From Acidobacteriota bacterium (GTDB taxonomy: Bacteria; Acidobacteriota; Terriglobia; Terriglobales; Acidobacteriaceae): a stretch of DNA of 64,000 bases. The position numbers were made by a program, and so were the translations under genes. The notes under the pieces are model-generated. The model searched no databases. It was not told the origin of the DNA and worked only from the letters and a program-made list of their open reading frames with translations. Where the stretch lies: the NCBI GenBank assembly GCA_013289765.1, contig JABCZI010000010.1, positions 1 through 64,000 on the forward strand, read 5' to 3'. Shown here one piece after another: positions 27,318-39,355 of this stretch. Within the stretch, counting starts at the first letter, position 1, and each line of letters opens with the position of its first letter.

Positions 27318-30218
27318 CTAGCGACCGCCTTCATGTCCCGCGCCCAACAGATTTACGTAGAGCCGCACCGCCCCCGGCACTCCCGCAGGCAGTTGGCGGA
27401 AAAATGCGTATCCCGTGTAGATGTACGTTCCCTTGCCATACTGCGCTTTGAGCAACCCGCCCTTTTGCGCGTCCTCCCCGGGATCGTGACACGCTAGCAG
27501 CGGCTTGAAGTGCTCGTCCCATTTGTCCATGAAATAGAGTCCGCGTTCCTGCACCCAGCCGTCGAAGTCGTGCGCTGTAATCTCATTCGGGTAATGAAAT
27601 ATTCCATCCTCAGGCGCCAGAATTTCGACCGGAGCTTCTTCCAGCGAAACCCGCGCCCGGCTGAGCTCCGCAGAGTAAGGAGTGAAGTGCCCGCTGTTGA
27701 AATCAGGCACGCTGGCATTGTACTGCACCACCAGAGTTCCTCCGGCGGCGACAAAGTCGAGCAGCTTCTTGTTATTCGCCGCCACAGTTTTCTGCGTATC
27801 GTAGGCACGAATTCCCAGGACGATCGTTTCGTATTGACTTAGATCCGCGCTCGCGAGGCTGTCCGGCGGAATCAGAGTCACGTTCATTCCCACTTGCTTG
27901 AGCACGGTAGGAATGTCGTCCCCGGCTCCCATGATGTAGCCGACTTTCAGGTCATGCGGGACCTTCACGTCGACAATGCTCACTCGTTGCAGCGCCGGCT
28001 GATAATAGTAGAAACTGCCTAAGTCTTCGCGGGTCACCAGCGTGTAACCCTCGGTGAACTTCTCGCCGCTAGCGTCCAGAACTGCTCGAACCTTGGCTCT
28101 TCCTTCGTGCAAATCAGAAGGGAAGACCTTGAACCTGAAATCTTGCTTCTCTCCGCGCTGAGTAAAGTCCGCCACGAACTGTGCTGGTTCTGATCGCCAG
28201 CCAGCCGGCACGTCCAATCGAAGCACACCGTGTGAACTTTGAGCTAGATTGCTGGTCACGCCAACTTCTACCGTCGAACTCGCGCCATTGTGGGTTGAGA
28301 TGACCTGCGTGCCTGGTTCCAGTGCGACTGAGAATGCCGGCACTACAGCCAGCGGACGCGCACGCTCTTTCCCAGAGTCGTCTTTGAATTTCGTGACTAC
28401 GGTCGCGCCGATCTCGCTTCTCGTATCTTTGCCCCCGATGCCAGAGGAATACTCTGCTCTCGCCCGCAGGACTGGAGGGGGAAACGGCAAGGTCGCATAT
28501 CTTTCATCGTCGATATGATTGACGCTCTCCGTCTCAGGATTATCGCGATGCCAGTAGGGGCGCGTGTACGCTGCATTTTTAGGAACAGTCAATCGGAATA
28601 CCACATGCTCACTTCCGCCGGGTGAGATAGCAACGCGCTTCGTTTTATCGGAGGTCGTGCCCCACCCTTCCGGCGCTTGCAGCTTCAGGCCGTCAAGGAA
28701 CAGACTGCGATTGGATCCGTTGCGCAAATCCACCGCGACGATAAATTCCTGGCCCGGAGAAACTGTGGTCAATGCCGCAGCTTCTTTTTTTGCGACGTCC
28801 TTTACAGCTTCACCATCTGGCCCGACCCTGGAAACCACAGCCGCTTCCAGCGATACGTTCAGTGCTTCGTTGAGCGCCGTTTCCGCTTGCTCTCGCTTCT
28901 CTTTCAGGCGATCCAACAGGTCGGATTTCACTCTTAAATCGAGCGCGCTCTTGCCGACTTCGATGCGCGCTCGCTCCAGGCCCTCCAAAACTTTCGCAAG
29001 AGGGGCCTCCGCCGCAGACAAATCGTTCCCTGTCGCATTCTTACCGGCTTCGGCATTCTGCCTCGCAATTTCCGTCAATTCCTTGCGCAATTGCGGAACC
29101 TTCGACTCTTCCGCTCCCAACCGCGCCGCCAGGCCTGGCAGACTTGTATCGATGCCATCGAAGAAGTCTTTCTCGTGCCCGTCTTTGTCCAGCTTCGCCG
29201 GCTGGATGGAATCCACAAGCTTGTAAAAGGTAAATCGGTCTCCGGGTTCTACAGTCCAGTTGGCGGACCCTTGTGATAGCTGATGCCGCAATCCCTGCAT
29301 CGCGAACTGCACATACGACCCTCCCAGGTCCGGGTCCGGCTCGCCTGTATTCAGTTTCACTGTCCAATTTGCGTCGGGGCATGTCATCGCGCCAAATCCG
29401 CAAACATTGCCGAGGTAGAGCTTCTTCGCCTGCCAGGGAAGAAGACCTTGCGCGATCTGCTCGGGAAACCGTTTGGGGTCGGCCGCGGCACGAAACGCTT
29501 CTTGGGTCAGGATGCTCGAAGCCTGGTGGTGCCCATGCCCATCACGCTGGGTGCCGGAAAATCTCGCTATCAGAACATCCGGCCGAAAAGTTCGAATCAC
29601 ACGCACCATATCTCCCAGCGCCGGGTCGTGTCCGTTCCACTTCGCGAAAGTCTCGTCGGCGCTTTTGGAAAATCCAAAGTCGGCAACGCGTGAGAACCGT
29701 TGCTGCACGCCATAATATTCGTCTGCCGCCAGCAGTTCCAGCGTCCGCAGCACCCCCAGCACATCCGACAAATTGCTTCCGACTTTATTCTGCCCACCCT
29801 CGCCACGATTCAACGTCATCAACAAAACGCTGGCTCCGCGACCCCGCGATTCCAGCGTGAGCATTCCACCATCTTCATCGTCCGGGTGCGCTACCGTCTG
29901 CATCAGGTGCGCGGTCGTGCCGAGCCGGCGCAGTGTCTGCCGCAGTCCCACAACGCCCTGATCCTGCGGAAGTTCTGGGGGAGTTCCCTGATAAGGAAGC
30001 TGAGGAAAGTTCGTTATAGCAGCCTCGCGATTCGCAGTTTGCTGGGAAGAAGCCGAAGCTGCCGAGTTCTCCGCACCCTGCTGCGGCCCCGCAACGAGCA
30101 ACAGGGGAATCGCCAGAAATGAAAACATATAGGAGGTGCGAATGATTGAGGTTTGGATGAAATCACGGACGAATCGTCCCATCCCGTTTAAAAGGTGTTT
30201 GATTGCCAGTTGGCTCAC
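27318..30218 (-). CDS. Secreted PIG-L (LmbE-like) deacetylase, multidomain
   Basis: About 966 residues from GTG 30218, which lacks a clear ribosome-binding site; later starts such as ATG at the MFSFLAIPLLLV signal-like segment are possible. The catalytic PIG-L domain occupies about 100-290: AHPDDEDGGML (H111, D113, D114) and DGHGHHQASSILTQEAF give the zinc site. A long helical linker follows (GLERARIEVGKSALDL), then immunoglobulin-like sandwiches (SPGQEFIVAVDLRNGSNRSLF, VEVGVTSNLAQSS) and a C-terminal glutamine-amidotransferase-like domain (QYETIVLGIRAYDT, TLVVQYNAS). PIG-L enzymes remove N-acetyl groups from sugars, so this may be an exported glycan deacetylase; the substrate is unknown. Confidence 0.85.
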   Translation of the reverse strand: MSQLAIKHLLNGMGRFVRDFIQTSIIRTSYMFSFLAIPLLLVAGPQQGAENSAASASSQQTANREAAITNFPQLPYQGTPPELPQDQGVVGLRQTLRRLGTTAHLMQTVAHPDDEDGGMLTLESRGRGASVLLMTLNRGEGGQNKVGSNLSDVLGVLRTLELLAADEYYGVQQRFSRVADFGFSKSADETFAKWNGHDPALGDMVRVIRTFRPDVLIARFSGTQRDGHGHHQASSILTQEAFRAAADPKRFPEQIAQGLLPWQAKKLYLGNVCGFGAMTCPDANWTVKLNTGEPDPDLGGSYVQFAMQGLRHQLSQGSANWTVEPGDRFTFYKLVDSIQPAKLDKDGHEKDFFDGIDTSLPGLAARLGAEESKVPQLRKELTEIARQNAEAGKNATGNDLSAAEAPLAKVLEGLERARIEVGKSALDLRVKSDLLDRLKEKREQAETALNEALNVSLEAAVVSRVGPDGEAVKDVAKKEAAALTTVSPGQEFIVAVDLRNGSNRSLFLDGLKLQAPEGWGTTSDKTKRVAISPGGSEHVVFRLTVPKNAAYTRPYWHRDNPETESVNHIDDERYATLPFPPPVLRARAEYSSGIGGKDTRSEIGATVVTKFKDDSGKERARPLAVVPAFSVALEPGTQVISTHNGASSTVEVGVTSNLAQSSHGVLRLDVPAGWRSEPAQFVADFTQRGEKQDFRFKVFPSDLHEGRAKVRAVLDASGEKFTEGYTLVTREDLGSFYYYQPALQRVSIVDVKVPHDLKVGYIMGAGDDIPTVLKQVGMNVTLIPPDSLASADLSQYETIVLGIRAYDTQKTVAANNKKLLDFVAAGGTLVVQYNASVPDFNSGHFTPYSAELSRARVSLEEAPVEILAPEDGIFHYPNEITAHDFDGWVQERGLYFMDKWDEHFKPLLACHDPGEDAQKGGLLKAQYGKGTYIYTGYAFFRQLPAGVPGAVRLYVNLLGAGHEGGR

Positions 30219-32903: not shown

Positions 32904-33134
32904 GAGAACACTAAGCCCCCGAACGCGGTAATGTTAGGCGCGTCAGCCACTCCGGTCAACCTGCGCCACCCAAGTTACACGTTAGATTCCGGCCTTCAAC
33001 GAGGTCGGCCGATGTTCGCGCCGGCATTTGAGTTCCCAAACTGACAACGGCCGCTTCCTTTTGTGTCGGCATCGTGTTCCAGGTTGCGCGAATCGCGAAT
33101 ACTATTACTCTAGCAATTGGGGAGGCGGTTTCAT

Positions 33135-33488
33135 ATGGCGCAGAAGTCTGAGGGCCATTCTTCTGAGATGCTGAAAGCGATCCGTCGGCGCGCCACCGAG
33201 CTTTATGAGAACCGCGGCGTCGAAGGTCACGACGCCGAAAACTGGTACCAGGCGGAAGCCGAGATCATTCGCGAATCGGCCATGCACTTGGCTCGGCGGG
33301 CTGTCGTCATCAACGTCCAGGGAGTAGTCTACACCGGCGAGTATGAGTGCAGCGCTGCTGATGGCTACACTCCGGGCGAATGGAAGCCCGGAGATCCCAT
33401 TCCCATTCGGCTGGCGGGCGATAAGCTCTACCTTCGACGCAGCAACGGCCGCGAACTCAAGACCACCATCGTCAGGAGAATAGGTTAG
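33135..33488 (+). CDS. DUF2934-type protein
   Basis: 117 residues from ATG 33135 with GGGGAGG 9-10 bases upstream. The first half has the DUF2934 pattern: IRRRATELYENRG, GHDAENWYQAEAEI. The second half is a beta-rich tail (QGVVYTGEYECSA, GDPIPIRLAGDKLYLRR). Function of the domain is unknown. It converges on the last gene of the amidoligase locus. Confidence 0.75.
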   Translation: MAQKSEGHSSEMLKAIRRRATELYENRGVEGHDAENWYQAEAEIIRESAMHLARRAVVINVQGVVYTGEYECSAADGYTPGEWKPGDPIPIRLAGDKLYLRRSNGRELKTTIVRRIG

Positions 33489-33497
33489 AGACGCGGG

Positions 33498-34703
33498 CTA
33501 GCCGCGTGTGTACAACCCTGCGGATGCTCCCACCCATTCCATATTCTTGTTGTGATCCACTCCCATCATCAAGCCACGCCCCATGCGAATGATCGTCAGC
33601 ACAGCCTGCAACTCCTCTTGCCACACATACATCACTCGCACTTCAGCCTTGGTTCCGCCAAACGGCGTCTCGATCACCGGCTCGAAGTGCAGCCGCTCCT
33701 GCAGGATGTAATCTTTCCGTTTGTCGGCGGGGATTGCTCGAATGTCTTCTTTCGTCGGCGCAATTACCACGCCCAGCCCGGCGAAAGAATACAGCGGCTT
33801 AAGCGCATAGTTCTGCAAGTCGTCAGGAATTTGATCCAGGCGATCAAGGAACCAGGTTCTCGGTACCGATTCATGGCGCAAATACGGAATTGAAAATTTG
33901 CTAATCCGAAAATACCAGTTCGGATGACCCGCCCACTCCACGTCAAGATCGTCACGCCAATCGAATGCGAGCTTCACATTCTTGCGCTGCAACTCGTCCA
34001 CAATCGCCCGGTTGTAAATCCGCCGGATCGGCACCCGGGTCCCTTCACGCTCGTAGTAGAGCTGCGACCCTTGTTTCTTGATCGCCTGGATATCTACGGT
34101 CTTTATCCCTAGCATCTTTTCGGTGAGCAGAAAATCCGGCAGCGTTTTCTGTTCCTGCGGGTGAATCTCCATGAGGATCACGTTATCCGGATCATGTGCG
34201 CCCACAATCGCTTGCCGCAAGAGTTCAGAGTAGGACTTCTCATCCAACCCGCTCAAAAAGAACTGCAGCCCGTCGCCGCCTTCGAACCGAGTCAGTTCGA
34301 AAACATCAATGTAGCTCTGCGCCAGCGTCACCTGATAAGCGTAGAGGGAAGGGAAGGCTTGTAGTTCAACCAGCTTGGGTTGCAACTCTCCGGCTGAATC
34401 GCGGACCAGGCCAAAATCGACTTGCACGAACATTGGGTGATTCGGCTCATTCGGAACGCGAAATTCCGCTGGAATTGACTGGTCCGATAGCGTTCGATAT
34501 TCAGGACTCTCGACCAGTTGCCGGATCAATACTTTCCCATTCGCCGCCATTCGCTCAAGCAGTGACTGTGGGAAGAAACAGGGAGTCTCCGACAACCGGA
34601 ATTGGACATGAGTTCCGCACGCGTCATCAATTCGCCGCAAGAATGTCTGATATTTCTGGGGGGTAAAGCCGGCGTTAAATTGCTTACGGAGAGGAGGAAT
34701 CAT
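33498..34703 (-). CDS. ATP-grasp-like ligase candidate (last gene of amidoligase locus)
   Basis: 401 residues. The N-terminal half contains KLVELQAFPSLYAYQVTLAQ, resembling the acidic substrate/metal segment of ATP-grasp enzymes. The C-terminal half has ALKPLYSFAGLGVVIAP, DYILQERLHFEPVIE and TKAEVRVMYVW, matching the ATP-grasp nucleotide Lys, Gly-rich loop and terminal metal-binding strand. It ends with MGRGLMMGVDHNKN. Such enzymes join a carboxylate to an amine via acyl phosphate. No named family is claimed. It starts 49 bases after the M29 peptidase stop and is the last gene of the run. Confidence 0.6.
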   Translation of the reverse strand: MIPPLRKQFNAGFTPQKYQTFLRRIDDACGTHVQFRLSETPCFFPQSLLERMAANGKVLIRQLVESPEYRTLSDQSIPAEFRVPNEPNHPMFVQVDFGLVRDSAGELQPKLVELQAFPSLYAYQVTLAQSYIDVFELTRFEGGDGLQFFLSGLDEKSYSELLRQAIVGAHDPDNVILMEIHPQEQKTLPDFLLTEKMLGIKTVDIQAIKKQGSQLYYEREGTRVPIRRIYNRAIVDELQRKNVKLAFDWRDDLDVEWAGHPNWYFRISKFSIPYLRHESVPRTWFLDRLDQIPDDLQNYALKPLYSFAGLGVVIAPTKEDIRAIPADKRKDYILQERLHFEPVIETPFGGTKAEVRVMYVWQEELQAVLTIIRMGRGLMMGVDHNKNMEWVGASAGLYTRG

Positions 34704-34752
34704 CGTGAACGGTGATACTAGCGATGACCACTAAGAATCGAAATGAAAAAGC

Positions 34753-35835
34753 TTACGCTTCAAGCAAGAATGTTCCGTCTTGCATAATCTGCTGCTCATC
34801 TACCCAAATGTTGAATTTGCGTCCCACTACATCGATATGAGTCGAAGAATCCCAATCCGCTCCGGTGTGCGCGCCGTACGGGTTTCCGAAGGCAATGTGC
34901 ACGCCGGGATACTTCTCGTCCTGCAGAATTTGTCCAATGACGTCTTTCAAATCGATGTTGGTTCCAATGGCAAACTCGCCGACGCGGTCGCTGTTCTCAT
35001 CGGTATGCGTGTACTTCCAGAAATCGTCTTCAAGTTCGCGATTCTCTGAATGAGCCTCAGTCAGGCGATTTTTCTTGATGTGGATGGTCAGAGGGTTCTC
35101 GCGCAAGCTCCCAAACTTCGCGCACAAATAGTCTCCCACCACGCCGTCAATTACGAAAGTGCCGTTAACTTCGCCCGGAGTCGTAAAAATTTCCCCGCCC
35201 GGCAGGTTTCCCCACTTTTCCGGAGTGATCAGGCCGCTCGTCTTCAGCCAGCGATAGTTGTGATTCAGTTCGGCAGTCAAATCTGTTCCTGCCGCCGTGG
35301 TCGCGCGCACCCGCTGCGCTTTGCGCACCAGGTCCACAACCTTGGCGCTCAATCGATCAACTTTCTGAAAGTCCGCCCGCATCCCTTCCATCATGATCTG
35401 GCGGTTAATGTTCACCATGTGCGCATGCCGGATTTTCTTGCGGTTCACCATATCCGTCATCTGCATGCGTGAACGGAGTTCATTCCGCTGTGCCTGCACC
35501 GCAAAAATCGAGACTTGGCTAGTTTCCAAATCGTCGATAACTTCTTCAGGCAGATCTTGCAAGGGTCTGGGAGCCAGATCTTCGAGCACCCAAACGTTGT
35601 GGGGTGAGCCCACTGTTTCCAGTTCACTTACAATCGAAGCGGCAATTTCAAGCGTGACCTCGTCGGTGATCACGCAAACCTTCTCCTGAGGTTGCACCCG
35701 CAAGCAAACGCCCACCGCGTTCCGCGCACCCGGTGTGAACTCAGGATCGAAAGAGATGGCGTTCCGTGCACCCCACCCTTGGAGTTGTTTGCGAGGGGAG
35801 GAAGGCATTCTGACTTGGTCCGCAGGAATAGTCAT
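34753..35835 (-). CDS. M29-family (thermophilic-type) aminopeptidase
   Basis: 360 residues. It resembles the PepS/AmpT group: ATTAAGTDLTAELN in the middle, NLPGGEIFTTP as a Glu metal ligand, and IAFGNPYGAHTGADWDSSTHIDVV with the C-terminal His/Asp ligands. It starts with ATG 35835 and shares one base with the GCS2 stop (TGATG), implying translational coupling. In this locus it could trim a peptide made by the ligases or recycle it. Exact substrate unknown. Confidence 0.8.
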   Translation of the reverse strand: MTIPADQVRMPSSPRKQLQGWGARNAISFDPEFTPGARNAVGVCLRVQPQEKVCVITDEVTLEIAASIVSELETVGSPHNVWVLEDLAPRPLQDLPEEVIDDLETSQVSIFAVQAQRNELRSRMQMTDMVNRKKIRHAHMVNINRQIMMEGMRADFQKVDRLSAKVVDLVRKAQRVRATTAAGTDLTAELNHNYRWLKTSGLITPEKWGNLPGGEIFTTPGEVNGTFVIDGVVGDYLCAKFGSLRENPLTIHIKKNRLTEAHSENRELEDDFWKYTHTDENSDRVGEFAIGTNIDLKDVIGQILQDEKYPGVHIAFGNPYGAHTGADWDSSTHIDVVGRKFNIWVDEQQIMQDGTFLLEA

Positions 35836-36974
35836 CAGCCTACTCTTCTTTCCGAAACTGGTTCATCTGCTTCCAGCCCGGTCTCGGTTTCTTCAATAAT
35901 GTAATCGACAACTTTTTTCAAATCCCCAGTCTCTTGAAACACCTGCAGCTGCCGGTCGGCGCCACTGCCGCGCTCAAGCATGGTATGGATGTAGTTCAGC
36001 TCTTCCCGAGAATCTAATTCGTCGGCTACGTCATCGACAAATTCCAGATACTCGCGAATCAAATCGCGGGCTGGCACTTCTGTTTGCTTGCCAAAATCGA
36101 TCAGTTTGCCGTTCATTCCGTAGCGCGCCGCCCGCCACTTATTCTCCATTAGAAGCGCACGCCGGTACAAACGGAATCCCTGATTCGCGGTATGCAGTTT
36201 ATACAGTTTCGCCACAGTGGCCTGAATCAGCGCCGCCAGGGCAATCGTTTCATCCGCCCGCATCGGAATGTCGCACACCCGGAATTCGATGGTGTTAAAG
36301 AAGGGATGCGGCCGGATGTCCCACCAGATCTTTTTTGCGTTGTCGATGCAGTTGGTCTTGATCAGCAGCTTGATAAAGTTTTCGTATTCGCCCCAGCTGG
36401 GAAAATAATCCGGAATATTAGTCCGGGGGAATTTATCAAAAACTTTGCATCGATAAGACTTGAGGCCACTATCCATACCCAGCCAGAACGGCGAGTTGGT
36501 GGATAATGCGAGCAAGTGCGGCAGAAAATACCGCGCGTGGTTCATCATGTGGATCGCGGTCTCGCGGTCCTCAATCCCTATGTGCACGTGCAGCCCAAAA
36601 ATAAGATTCGCCCGCGCTACCAACTGCATATCCTCGACAATATTCTTGTAGCGTTCGTCGGGATGAATCTCCTGCACTCGCCAGTCGGCAAACGGATGGG
36701 TCGCGACCGACGCGAGCTTCAGCCCATTCTCATTGGCAAGCCTGATAATATCGCGCCGCAGCATCTTCACTTCTGCTTTAGCTTCCTTGATGTTTTTGCA
36801 GACCCCAGTCCCTACTTCCACCACGGACTGATGCATCTCCGCCTTCACCCGCTCTTGCAGGATGAGCTTGCCCTTCTCAAGGATCTCCGCCTGGATATGC
36901 GACCGCAGATCCCGCGTCTCCGGATCTACCGTCTGATATTCCTCTTCGATCCCGATGCTGAATGTAGGTTTCAT
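35835..36974 (-). CDS. GCS2-type carboxylate-amine ligase (YbdK-like)
   Basis: 379 residues. The N-terminal SIGIEEEYQTVDP has the metal-binding Glu triplet of glutamate-cysteine-ligase-2 proteins. Further motifs are EMHQSVVEVGTGV, LASVATHPFADW, ANLIFGLHVHIGIEDRETAI and HPFFNTIEFRVCDIPM. The family ligates an amine to a carboxylate, typically a gamma-glutamyl group, with ATP. Canonical glutathione synthesis is unlikely, since the neighbours are an aminopeptidase, ATP-grasp proteins and an esterase rather than GshB. It is the best-defined amide ligase of the locus. Confidence 0.85.
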   Translation of the reverse strand: MKPTFSIGIEEEYQTVDPETRDLRSHIQAEILEKGKLILQERVKAEMHQSVVEVGTGVCKNIKEAKAEVKMLRRDIIRLANENGLKLASVATHPFADWRVQEIHPDERYKNIVEDMQLVARANLIFGLHVHIGIEDRETAIHMMNHARYFLPHLLALSTNSPFWLGMDSGLKSYRCKVFDKFPRTNIPDYFPSWGEYENFIKLLIKTNCIDNAKKIWWDIRPHPFFNTIEFRVCDIPMRADETIALAALIQATVAKLYKLHTANQGFRLYRRALLMENKWRAARYGMNGKLIDFGKQTEVPARDLIREYLEFVDDVADELDSREELNYIHTMLERGSGADRQLQVFQETGDLKKVVDYIIEETETGLEADEPVSERRVG

Positions 36975-37075
36975 CGCATGATTTCGGAAGGTTGAATCAG
37001 CCCATCGTTTCGTATTCTTTGCAAAAGGATAGGTAAATCAGCCCAATCAGTATAGCAACCGGAACAAAAGCCCGA

Positions 37076-37447
37076 TCAGAAGCTGTGGTGATCCTGAAAC
37101 CAGGACAGCCACAGGAAAAGACCGACGAGAAGCAGCATCAACAAGCCCAGGCCGATGGAGACGAAAGAGAATACATTGCGCACCCAGTGTCCCGCGGACA
37201 ATGATCGAGACAACAGGATGATCGCCGTGACTTGTCCGATAAGAATCGCTCCGATACCCCAGACGACGAATAGCTCAGTCAGACCTCCAGCGACTGCATC
37301 GATTCCTGTTGCCTTGTGTTTCGCAATATCTCGCAGTGTCATGGCAAGACCGATCGCAACTGGAATCCACGGACACCATACTAGAAGCGCGCCCCATCGG
37401 AGCCGCTTTCTATTGATCTCGTCCATCGGTTCCGGTGGATTCTCCAC
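37076..37447 (-). CDS. Small membrane protein of the amidoligase locus
   Basis: 123 residues with three or four hydrophobic helices (GALLVWCPWIPVAIGLAM, LFVVWGIGAILIGQVTAIIL, FVSIGLGLLMLLLVGLFLW). The GTG start at 37447 directly abuts the TAA stop of the preceding ATP-grasp gene (TAAGTG), indicating coupled translation. An ATG at residue 8 is an alternative. No family recognised; it may anchor or export the product. Confidence 0.6.
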   Translation of the reverse strand: MENPPEPMDEINRKRLRWGALLVWCPWIPVAIGLAMTLRDIAKHKATGIDAVAGGLTELFVVWGIGAILIGQVTAIILLSRSLSAGHWVRNVFSFVSIGLGLLMLLLVGLFLWLSWFQDHHSF

Positions 37448-38458
37448 TTACTTCGCCGCCTTTCCCCGCTTCCGCTGCGCCACCCATGCCGGCTCGCCCT
37501 TACGAGATTGCTTCGCGGGCGCCTTCCCAGCCAGAAAACTAGCCCAGCGCATTTCCCGCGCTGGATCCTCCCCGGTCACGGCCATCTTCACTGCCATTTC
37601 TGCAACCGCATTCACGATCCAATCAAAGTTCTCCGCGCCGACCGATGTAATCTCCGCATCCGGCGCTGGATTCAGAAAATCAATCGCGTATGGCACTCCA
37701 CCCTCTACCGCAAACTCCACCGTGTTCAAGTCATACCCGAGCACACGGCACAGAGTCAGCGCGTCTTTTTCAATCCTGGCCCGCAACGCCTCTGACGAGG
37801 GCGGAGGATTCCCCTTCACATACCGCTCATGATGCGGCAGCCGGGGGTCGTATTTCATGATGTGCACTTTCTCCTGCCCCACCACGTAGCAGCGGTAATA
37901 CTCTTCAAAGACCACGCCGTGCTGCAATGTCATGCACAAATCACCGGTCTGATTGTAGTGCTGAAAAAATTCTTCCGGCGAATGCACGTGGTAGACATGC
38001 TTCCACCCGCCGCCGGAATAAGGTTTCAAGAAAGCAGGGAAGCCGACATAGTCGAACAGTTCCTGCCAGTTCAACGGAAAGATCAGGTTTCGCATCGACC
38101 GGTCCGTCGTTCCTTCGGGATGCTTGTTGTGCGGAAGAATCACGGTCGGTGGAATCGCCACGGCCAGCTTCGAGGCGAGAGCGTAATTGAAAAACTTGTC
38201 GTCCGCCGTCCACCAGAACGGGTTGTTCACCACAATGGTCCCGTGCAGAGCCGCGTTTTTCAGGTATGCACGGTAGAACGGGATATCCTGCGAAATGCGG
38301 TCAATGATGACGGAATATTTCTGGGGTTCGTCCATGCGCACCCCGCCCACCTGGACGAACTCCGCGACTACGTCGTCAACCTTCATGGCGTTGATCTTCT
38401 CCACCAGCGCTGGTGGAAACGTATTCTCCATACCAAATAGAATTCCAATCTTCTTCAC
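37448..38458 (-). CDS. ATP-grasp ligase (D-Ala-D-Ala-ligase-like)
   Basis: 336 residues from GTG 38458, with GGAG 9-10 bases upstream; an in-frame TTG at 38476 is less likely. KKIGILFGMENTFP opens the N-terminal domain. VGFPAFLKPYSGGGWKHVY carries the ATP-binding Lys and Gly-rich loop, FEEYYRCYVVGQEKVHI the central strand, and TVEFAVEGGVPYAIDFLNPAPDAE the metal-binding E..D/N motif. This is a clear ATP-grasp carboxylate-amine ligase. Its neighbours (GCS2, a second ATP-grasp-like protein and an aminopeptidase) suggest peptide synthesis outside the ribosome. Confidence 0.8.
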   Translation of the reverse strand: MKKIGILFGMENTFPPALVEKINAMKVDDVVAEFVQVGGVRMDEPQKYSVIIDRISQDIPFYRAYLKNAALHGTIVVNNPFWWTADDKFFNYALASKLAVAIPPTVILPHNKHPEGTTDRSMRNLIFPLNWQELFDYVGFPAFLKPYSGGGWKHVYHVHSPEEFFQHYNQTGDLCMTLQHGVVFEEYYRCYVVGQEKVHIMKYDPRLPHHERYVKGNPPPSSEALRARIEKDALTLCRVLGYDLNTVEFAVEGGVPYAIDFLNPAPDAEITSVGAENFDWIVNAVAEMAVKMAVTGEDPAREMRWASFLAGKAPAKQSRKGEPAWVAQRKRGKAAK

Positions 38459-38484
38459 GGATTCATCTCCAAGCAAAAATTGTC

Positions 38485-38580
38485 ATCCTTAAAGTTGTCA
38501 TCCTGAGCGAAGTGATTGTTTCGCGAAGCGAAGCAGTCACGCAGTCGAAGGACCCCTACCACCGGTCTCTCTCGACCGCA
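38485..38580. repeat. Dispersed-repeat-like sequence (GTCATCCTGAGCG type)
   Basis: Contains TTGTCATCC twice (38480-38488, 38496-38504), a palindrome-like stretch around 38513-38540 (GTGATTG...CAGTCAC with imperfect arms and a TTCGCGAAGCGAA centre), and GTCGAAGGACCCCTACC. Sequences like this are familiar as abundant intergenic repeats in acidobacterial genomes (from memory). It separates the esterase stop from the ATP-grasp start and may be transcribed. Confidence 0.5.
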
Positions 38581-38644
38581 GCCGCAAGGCATTCTCCCCT
38601 TACTTTCGACTTCGGCGACCAAGGGCTAACGACTAACGACTGCC

Positions 38645-39355
38645 CTAAAAATACTTCCCCGCCATGTTTAGCCACAACGGCCAGTCGTGCTTCGAGTTGT
38701 CCCCGTAAACATCCAGCCAGTGCGGTACGGCTTTGCTGTTTAGAATCGCCGAAAGTTTCACGTTCTGGTCCAGACAGATATCCCAGTTGGCCGAGCCCAG
38801 CACGATTGTCATCTGCCGGTAGCGACTAAGAAACCAGTCGTCGTTCTGGTTCGGCAGATAATCCGGCGGGCAGTTGAAGTAGCAGTCGTCATCGTAATAT
38901 CCATCCAGGAATTGATGAATATCAAATGCTCCGCTCATGCTCACACAGTGAGTTACGACATCCGGATGCTTCAGGGCAAAGTTTACCGCCTGATACGCCC
39001 CGAAGCTGCACCCGGTCATTGCTAGCCCTGGACTCTGGTTCTTCCAGCGGATGAAAGGCACAAACTCGTGCAGAATGTAACGCTCAAACTGCAGGTGTCG
39101 CAGCACCCGCACCTTGGGATTCACGCCCTTGTTGTACCAGCTTTCCGTGTCGACCGCGTCCGTGCAAAATACCTGCAGCTCACCGCGTTCGATTTTTGGG
39201 GCGAGCACGCCGATCATTCCGCGGTCTTCATACTCGAAGAACTTTCCCATGGAAGTAGGAAACACCAGCAGCGGCGTGCCCGCATGCCCGAAAACCAGGG
39301 CTTCCATTTCGCGGCAAAGTTCCTGGCTGTAGGCTTTGTGATATTCGCGGTTCAT
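38645..39355 (-). CDS. Esterase-family alpha/beta hydrolase (amidoligase locus)
   Basis: 236 residues from ATG 39355 (MNREYHKAYSQEL), the usual beginning for this small esterase group. Upstream in-frame ATGs at 39454 and further would extend it into the divergent gene's start. Motifs: LVFGHAGTPLLVFPTSMG, EYEDRGMIGVLAP, the nucleophile TGCSFGAYQAV (Ser in GCSFG), an acid near LDVYGDN and a His in SKHDWPLW. A complete triad is plausible. It is the first gene of the minus-strand run ending at 33498. Confidence 0.78.
   Translation of the reverse strand: MNREYHKAYSQELCREMEALVFGHAGTPLLVFPTSMGKFFEYEDRGMIGVLAPKIERGELQVFCTDAVDTESWYNKGVNPKVRVLRHLQFERYILHEFVPFIRWKNQSPGLAMTGCSFGAYQAVNFALKHPDVVTHCVSMSGAFDIHQFLDGYYDDDCYFNCPPDYLPNQNDDWFLSRYRQMTIVLGSANWDICLDQNVKLSAILNSKAVPHWLDVYGDNSKHDWPLWLNMAGKYF

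Follow-up and report, generated by a model that had tools for sequence, protein, structure and literature searches.

What could be made by a row of adjacent genes that encodes three putative amide ligases of different folds together with a peptidase and an esterase? The question is raised by the minus strand of a 64,000-nucleotide stretch (referred to here as the window) of contig JABCZI010000010.1 in the Acidobacteriota assembly GCA_013289765.1. The list of open reading frames (ORFs) of the window contains six of them between positions 33498 and 39355, transcribed in the order EST-GRASP1-MEM-GCS2-M29-GRASP2, just as in the initial annotation of the sequence, which took these six consecutive genes for a candidate amide-ligase (peptide-forming) locus. 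In the order of transcription, they are as follows:

38645..39355, minus strand: EST, a 236-aa alpha/beta hydrolase, putative esterase, PF00756-like
37448..38458, minus strand (called ORF from TTG 38476): GRASP1, a predicted ATP-grasp ligase of canonical topology
37076..37447, minus strand: MEM, a small hydrophobic protein of 123 aa, accessory
35835..36974, minus strand: GCS2, a 379-aa YbdK-type carboxylate-amine ligase with a collinear domain
34753..35835, minus strand: M29, a 360-aa M29-type metallo-aminopeptidase-like protein
33498..34703, minus strand: GRASP2, a 401-aa circularly permuted ATP-grasp protein with the glutathione-synthetase/glutathionylspermidine-synthetase fold

On balance, we lean towards the view that this locus directs the stepwise synthesis, independent of the ribosome and of nonribosomal peptide synthetases (NRPSs), of a small gamma-glutamyl-type pseudopeptide by up to three ATP-dependent amide ligases of different folds. 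In such a pathway, GRASP1, a Ddl/LysX-like protein, would phosphorylate a carboxylate and join it to an amine, yielding a core dipeptide-like unit; GRASP2 would extend this unit by adding an amino acid or amine at a carboxyl end; GCS2 would contribute a gamma-glutamyl group or a similar acyl group; the product could be trimmed or recycled by the M29 aminopeptidase; and EST could cleave or form an ester/acyl bond on the product of GRASP1. We infer these activities, along with the substrates, step order, and product, from what was computed here, namely, the genes, their family and fold matches, retained residues of the active-site type, the conservation of gene order, co-occurrence, and a largely nested distribution. 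The conserved order and the retained ATP/metal residues and folds support the original amide-ligase interpretation of the locus. The gamma-glutamyl nature of the product, also part of that earlier proposal, we infer from the family to which GCS2 belongs.

The GRASP1-centered sample used to examine gene order consists of 120 loci fetched around GRASP1, with duplicates included (L032/L073 and L036/L098), which are not independent. The named loci are the best 80 of the 590 stretches confirmed among at least 595 in a scan of genome contigs, and 48 of the 80 are well flanked, extending 1.5 kb or more before the GRASP1 start and 6 kb or more after it. In tblastn searches with the window proteins, the partners of GRASP1 were detected anywhere in 64 (EST), 80 (GCS2), 57 (M29), and 49 (GRASP2) of the 120 loci, whereas genes flanking the locus in the window, used as a control, were found in 5 (TPR), 4 (CLC), 4 (DUF2934), and 12 (STK, a common kinase type). 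The recurrence of the partners around GRASP1 thus exceeds chance. Among the well-flanked loci, GCS2 follows GRASP1 on the same strand within 2.5 kb in 31, M29 within 5 kb in 28, and GRASP2 within 6 kb in 20; EST lies upstream on the same strand within 1.6 kb in 19; and all four partners stand in order in 14. The complete series EST-GRASP1-GCS2-M29-GRASP2 is found, for example, in the Bryocella elongata DSM 22489 record (L113). Variants without M29 include EST-GRASP1-GCS2-GRASP2 (L143 and L148) and GRASP1-GCS2-GRASP2 (L149 and L151).

The named records closest to the locus are Acidobacteriaceae metagenome-assembled genomes and “Candidatus Sulfotelmatobacter,” and the best 80 named loci include records of Ignavibacteria, Kapaibacterium, Chlorobiota, Bacteroidota, and Calditrichaeota. 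The order is kept in many Acidobacteriota and some Ignavibacteria and Bacteroidota records, so that its conservation, which the initial annotation had singled out for checking, reaches past the genus and sometimes past Acidobacteriota. Five of the six genes belong together; the small membrane protein, originally counted as part of the set, is accessory and stands outside the core. MEM matches no significant family in Pfam or NCBIfam (its Pfam matches are far under the cutoff), and its homologue was found in 1 of the 120 loci (L074, where it lies between GRASP1 and GCS2 and has 52% identity over 115 aa). It looks like a real gene, but a role as a core exporter was rejected because of this single occurrence, leaving little support for the membrane export once envisaged for the product. 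The set behaves as two submodules, EST-GRASP1 and GCS2-M29-GRASP2.

Co-occurrence was assessed in 297 genomes of the phylum, 31 of them from the organism's own family. GRASP1 was matched in 104 genomes at an E value of ≤0.001, and the 78 with at least 240 bits were counted as GRASP1 positive, which left out 26 of the 104, ten of them at 100 to 140 bits. Also left out were the matches to GRASP2 in G132 and G213, nine genomes with matches below 350 bits to CPG, another permuted ATP-grasp family (PF14403/PF04174 in the two members tested), and eight genomes whose GCS2 matches were partial or below 48% identity, G151 among them. A permuted ATP-grasp, either GRASP2 or CPG, is found in 72 of the 78 GRASP1 genomes versus 3 of the 219 others. 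All 62 genomes with the best-scoring GCS2 (at least 476 bits) have GRASP1, compared with 4 of the next 28 (48 to 57% identity).

The distribution of GRASP1, the permuted ATP-grasp, and GCS2 is mostly nested: among the 78 GRASP1 genomes, 61 have a permuted ATP-grasp and a close GCS2, 4 have a permuted ATP-grasp and a lower-scoring GCS2, 7 have a permuted ATP-grasp without GCS2, 5 have neither, and 1 has GCS2 without a permuted ATP-grasp. The picture by family is similar (24 families with GRASP1 and two more without); some families have GRASP1 and a permuted ATP-grasp and no GCS2, while GCS2 without a permuted ATP-grasp is seen in a single genome from a single family. Should each step depend on those before it, such nesting would have GRASP1 act before the permuted ATP-grasp and GCS2 after both. 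Within the organism's own family, GCS2 and GRASP2 occur together in 16 genomes, sometimes far apart on the chromosome, and are both absent in 15; GRASP1 is present in the same 16 genomes and in 4 more. Split loci also occur: GCS2 is missing nearby in 23 named loci, and of the 16 genomes searched among these, 13 have a GCS2 homologue elsewhere (12 at 57 to 68% identity and one at 40%) and 12 have GRASP2.

The family assignments made in the initial annotation (esterase, two ATP-grasp proteins, GCS2, and M29) are borne out by Pfam and NCBIfam matches, profile comparisons, and fold models. GRASP1 and GRASP2 matched no Pfam model at an E value of ≤1. A profile built from 20 GRASP1 sequences has matches to D-alanine-D-alanine ligase (Ddl) and biotin carboxylase, and the AlphaFold2 model of GRASP1 (mean predicted local distance difference test [pLDDT] score of 83.8) retrieved Ddl (E value, 3.7e-13), LysX/ArgX, and RimK in Foldseek, all of which share its fold although sequence identity to the 50 listed matches is only 12 to 18%. 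Residues K151, Q185, R195, E254, D266, and N269 (numbered from TTG 38476) are at least 97% conserved in 120 rows, and in the profile alignment, E254, D266, and N269 correspond to the D, E, and N of Ddl, with D266 adjoining a one-residue gap; GRASP1 has D-F-L-N where Ddl carries E-V-N. The modeled fold, the ATP lysine, and the metal acid/Asn of the C-terminal lobe characterize GRASP1 as a predicted canonical ATP-grasp protein. Five loci (L066 to L070, e.g., L070:7455-10918) contain distant GRASP1 relatives of ∼420 aa with 27 to 29% identity, each with a neighbor of the F80 family. The F80 member of L070, the one tested, matches Peptidase_S51 and is cyanophycinase-like, and a PF00756 esterase lies between it and the GRASP1 relative; these loci could possibly represent a sister system.

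GRASP2 models confidently (pLDDT of 93.6) as a circularly permuted ATP-grasp of the glutathione synthetase (GSS)/glutathionylspermidine synthetase (GspS) type. Its best Foldseek match is human glutathione synthetase (8fbz; E value, 3.6e-15), followed by 1m0w, 3n6x, 2io7, 9cjn, and 7uka, and each of the 27 PDB structures matched at an E value of ≤0.001 is of the GSS, GSS-like effector, GspS, YgiC/YjfC, or Cp1B type. These include nematode glutathione-synthetase-like proteins, GspS relatives (2io7, 3n6x, YjfC, and YgiC), and, further down, homoglutathione synthetases. The modeled fold has three domains, and in the sequence the acidic metal motif precedes the glycine-rich loop: D96 and E113-x-Q115 come first and the K302-P-L-x-S-F-A-G-x-G loop follows, which is the permuted order. 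Residues D96, E113, Q115, K302, E354, R356, R373, D383, and N385 are at least 97% conserved (44 rows), and E113-x-Q115, which keeps the E of the E-x-N magnesium motif and replaces its N with Q, is invariant in 34 of 34 rows. The GRASP2 sequence from L053, which has a stop within its stretch, was dropped from alignment A3; of the eligible named-locus sequences, alignment A4 takes in all 33 and alignment A5 takes in 34 of 78. Both GRASP1 and GRASP2 retain the fold as well as residues of the ATP- and metal-binding type; a complete lack of such residues in either protein had been named in advance as contradicting the amide-ligase reading.

GRASP2 is related to the CP_ATPgrasp proteins (CPG) of sister clusters (hhalign E value, 2.4e-5; probability, 75.6%), and the two families co-occur in 5 of the 297 phylum genomes. 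Profile homology between GRASP1 and GRASP2/CPG was considered and rejected, as none was seen in the profile comparison. CPG directly follows GRASP1 in L044, L046, L048, L051, L054, and L071, and in L163 and L164, it is paired with GCS2 on a contig other than that of GRASP1. Two loci (L164:8379-10493 and L062:4508-6625) encode, between two CPG genes, a TPR protein of 705 to 706 aa with a C-terminal TlpA/ResA-like thioredoxin domain; in L164, GCS2 is also present beside these genes.

GCS2, the sole PF04107 match in its genome (4.8 Mb, 97.6% complete) at an E value of ≤0.001, matches that model at 1.4e-65 (222 bits, profile positions 2 to 290) and NCBIfam NF010039/PRK13515 with 556.7 bits against a cutoff of 371, and its structural relatives are YbdK-type proteins (1tt4/1r8g). 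It has a full-length collinear domain and the conserved acidic and His motifs of the YbdK/GCS2 family: E10-E11-E12, E46, H48, E53, H129-V-H131, E230, R232, and D235 are at least 97% conserved (77 rows). It is predicted to be an ATP-dependent ligase of a carboxylate, usually the gamma carboxylate of Glu, to an amine. M29 matches Peptidase_M29 (PF02073; E value, 5.9e-15), and its E215, E287, H313, Y320, H333, and D335, at least 97% conserved in 56 rows, form the E, E, H, Y, H, D series that we take to be the two-metal/catalytic set of this family. The first four align to the E, E, H, and Y of AmpS (1zjc); H333-x-D335 falls outside that alignment and onto H-L-D of NicX. The best single PDB match being NicX, a function like that of 2,5-dihydroxypyridine dioxygenase was considered and rejected because the aminopeptidase set is kept; in the NicX alignment, which is weak and has uncertain columns, the residues opposite E215, E287, H313, and Y320 are F, P, N, and P, and only H-x-D is common. 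The match of EST to the Pfam Esterase family is weak, although above the cutoff (PF00756; E value, 1.2e-6; 29 bits versus 22); it has a G115-x-S117-x-G119 motif and an H223-D-W-P-x-W end, in which S117 and H223 are at least 97% conserved (60 rows).

Several observations weigh against a single ordered pathway. No partner is nearby in 14 of the 48 well-flanked loci, and the four additional own-family genomes with GRASP1 have EST beside it and neither GCS2 nor GRASP2, which means that joint presence of the three ligases is not a general requirement. In G151, GRASP2, M29, and part of GCS2 are found but GRASP1 is missing, and G187 and G289 have CPG without GRASP1. The line between the GCS2 bands, drawn between G145 (476 bits) and G263 (474 bits), both at 57% identity, was set after the presence of GRASP1 was known; with looser cuts, GRASP1 is present in 65 of 69 genomes (at least 55% identity) or 66 of 98 (any match at an E value of ≤1e-10). 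The nine CPG matches below 350 bits, eight of them in one family, come from genomes without strong GRASP1 and raise the number of GRASP1-less genomes with a permuted ATP-grasp to 12 of 219. These matches and the post hoc GCS2 cut slightly lowered our confidence. Fisher values for co-occurrence are very small but ignore shared ancestry, and the counts, spread over 24 GRASP1 families, are not phylogenetically independent; differential loss could give the same nested picture. The equivalence of GRASP2 and CPG rests solely on their distant profile relation and common motif order, and the metal site of GRASP2 may be altered, since its motif reads E-x-Q and that of most CPG members E-x-N.

A bolder version of the proposed pathway, which we put forward tentatively and with more doubt than belief, is that the product is a widespread but so far unrecognized small pseudopeptide (a cofactor, protectant, or signal) made in the fixed order GRASP1, then GRASP2/CPG, then GCS2 in Acidobacteriota and in Ignavibacteria-, Chlorobiota-, and Calditrichota-type lineages, with the nesting reflecting lineages that stop at successive intermediates.

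Among the alternatives, the product could instead be a glutathione-like thiol, GCS2 forming gamma-glutamylcysteine, GRASP2 adding the third residue, and GRASP1 being ancillary. The glutathione and homoglutathione synthetases among the structural matches of GRASP2 would fit this scheme, as would the lack of a match to a GshB-type synthetase (TIGR01380) in the organism's genome at an E value of ≤0.001. A DinB-superfamily gene near GRASP1 in 8 of the 80 named loci, mostly upstream, could also be fitted in; the one member tested (L128:4247-4774) scored below the cutoff for YfiT-type bacillithiol transferase. However, a low-molecular-weight thiol is already expected in these bacteria because the bacillithiol gene bshC is present in the organism's genome and in 57 of 60 family genomes (53 over the cutoff), including all 48 of good quality. 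GRASP1, superfluous for glutathione, is the most frequent member of the set, and the PDB sequence search with GRASP2 yielded no glutathione synthetase at an E value of ≤1. A glutathione-like thiol appears unlikely.

Just behind it ranks the similarly improbable idea that EST-GRASP1 and GCS2-M29-GRASP2 are independent units, neighbors by history that serve separate pathways. In G249, the GCS2-M29-GRASP2 block sits ∼35 kb from GRASP1, which suggests two such submodules, and the four genomes with EST-GRASP1 alone and G151, with its GRASP2 and M29, show either unit kept without the other. Yet the presence of GRASP1 in 62 of the 62 best-scoring GCS2 genomes, even if inflated by shared ancestry and the post hoc cut, is hard to explain without functional dependence. 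The least probable of the three alternatives, that a RimK/LysX-like GRASP1 and GCS2 tag a protein or carrier with amino acids, which M29 then removes, draws on the RimK and LysX/ArgX structural neighbors of GRASP1, which act on protein-borne carboxylates, on a weak match to a RimK-family profile (21 bits; cutoff, 143), and on one subcutoff LysW-like match on another contig of the genome (G000:C12:20285-20416; 29 bits versus 53.2), but Ddl, a ligase of free amino acids, matches GRASP1 equally well, and no carrier gene was recognized at the locus in neighbor analyses that covered ORFs of at least 90 to 100 aa, a size range that a small carrier could escape. In a crude check of small ORFs, with longer frames chopped, the ten widest groups seem to be fragments or shadows of a pair of larger neighbor genes.

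The preferred multi-ligase pathway has parallels among known systems. Comparative-genomic work by Iyer, Abhiman, Burroughs, and Aravind in 2009 reportedly described amidoligase neighborhoods in which several ATP-dependent amide ligases of different folds accompany peptidases and hydrolases, the best-known set being said to combine a permuted GS-like ligase with an NTN-hydrolase and an alpha-helical domain. The locus described here likewise combines several ligase folds with a peptidase and a hydrolase, but its GCS2 is collinear, M29 and an alpha/beta hydrolase take the hydrolase places, and no NTN-hydrolase model of Pfam or NCBIfam scored over the cutoff in any of the six proteins, which sets it apart from the permuted-GS-like/NTN-hydrolase tagging systems. 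With the synthesis of glutathione, homoglutathione, and glutathionylspermidine (GCS plus GSS or GspS; YgiC, YjfC), it has in common a GCS-superfamily ligase and a permuted ATP-grasp of the GSS/GspS fold; it differs in having a third, canonical ATP-grasp, GRASP1, as its most frequent member, in the E-x-Q motif of GRASP2, and in that YgiC (E value, 0.86) is the sole GSS/GspS sequence match of GRASP2 at an E value of ≤1.

According to a study of the fungal NRPS-independent E-64 pathway (PMC12568646), Cp1B is a pseudodipeptide-forming ATP-grasp ligase of (homo)glutathione-synthetase architecture; the same study cites YgiC and YjfC as peptide-polyamine ligases. Cp1B, to which GRASP2 is related in fold (Foldseek match 9cjn), provides a precedent for an ATP-grasp of this architecture acting as a stand-alone amide ligase. 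It is, however, fungal and partnered by an oxygenase and an ANL-type amide synthetase rather than by GCS2 and a Ddl-like ATP-grasp. Aimed literature searches, which covered titles and abstract openings with subscription papers mostly outside, found no account of this exact gene set; its absence from print is not claimed. Judging from sequence families and models, the locus would be an orphan multi-ligase pathway.

Additional genes near GRASP1 were considered as clues to the substrates and rejected, as none is present in most loci. An aldo-keto reductase occurs near GRASP1 in 10 of the 80 named loci (two members tested), and occasional extra genes encode aminotransferases (L040 and L135), an M19 dipeptidase (L080), an RraA-like protein (L096), and others. 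Replacement of GCS2 by a Mur-type ligase beside GRASP1 in G098 was also rejected: the protein is MurF-like by NCBIfam and its position is probably coincidental.

Both start/stop contacts reported earlier at the gene junctions are real, with TGATG at 35837-35833 standing as described and TAAGTG lying at 37450-37445 rather than at 37447-37450. At TGATG, the stop of GCS2 overlaps the called start of M29, which is uncertain, with relatives outside the genus aligning only from about residue 25 to 28. GRASP1 relatives begin with M-K-K/R-I-G, which matches GTG 38458, six codons inside the called ORF, so that this codon, rather than TTG 38476, is probably the true start. The EST start at ATG 39355 is supported by M1, at least 97% conserved (60 rows). 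One further feature lies in the spacer between EST and GRASP1:

38497..38512, minus strand: a 16-base copy of a dispersed repeat motif

This motif has 43 matches in the genome at ≤1 mismatch versus 0 for the reversed control and is not thought to be functional in the pathway. Adjoining the locus at 33117-33488 is a divergent DUF2934 gene. A 966-aa protein encoded beside the locus at 27318-30218 has an AHPDDE motif, which we take to be PIG-L/LmbE deacetylase-like.

If the proposed pathway is real, a large and poorly cultured group of bacteria makes a peptide-like metabolite from a locus that would presumably be overlooked by cluster finders searching for NRPSs or precursor peptides. Through its largely nested distribution, an orphan gene set becomes an ordered pathway that is open to testing, and GRASP1 and GRASP2, with no Pfam match, could represent new families of ligases that might serve biocatalysis in forming amides.

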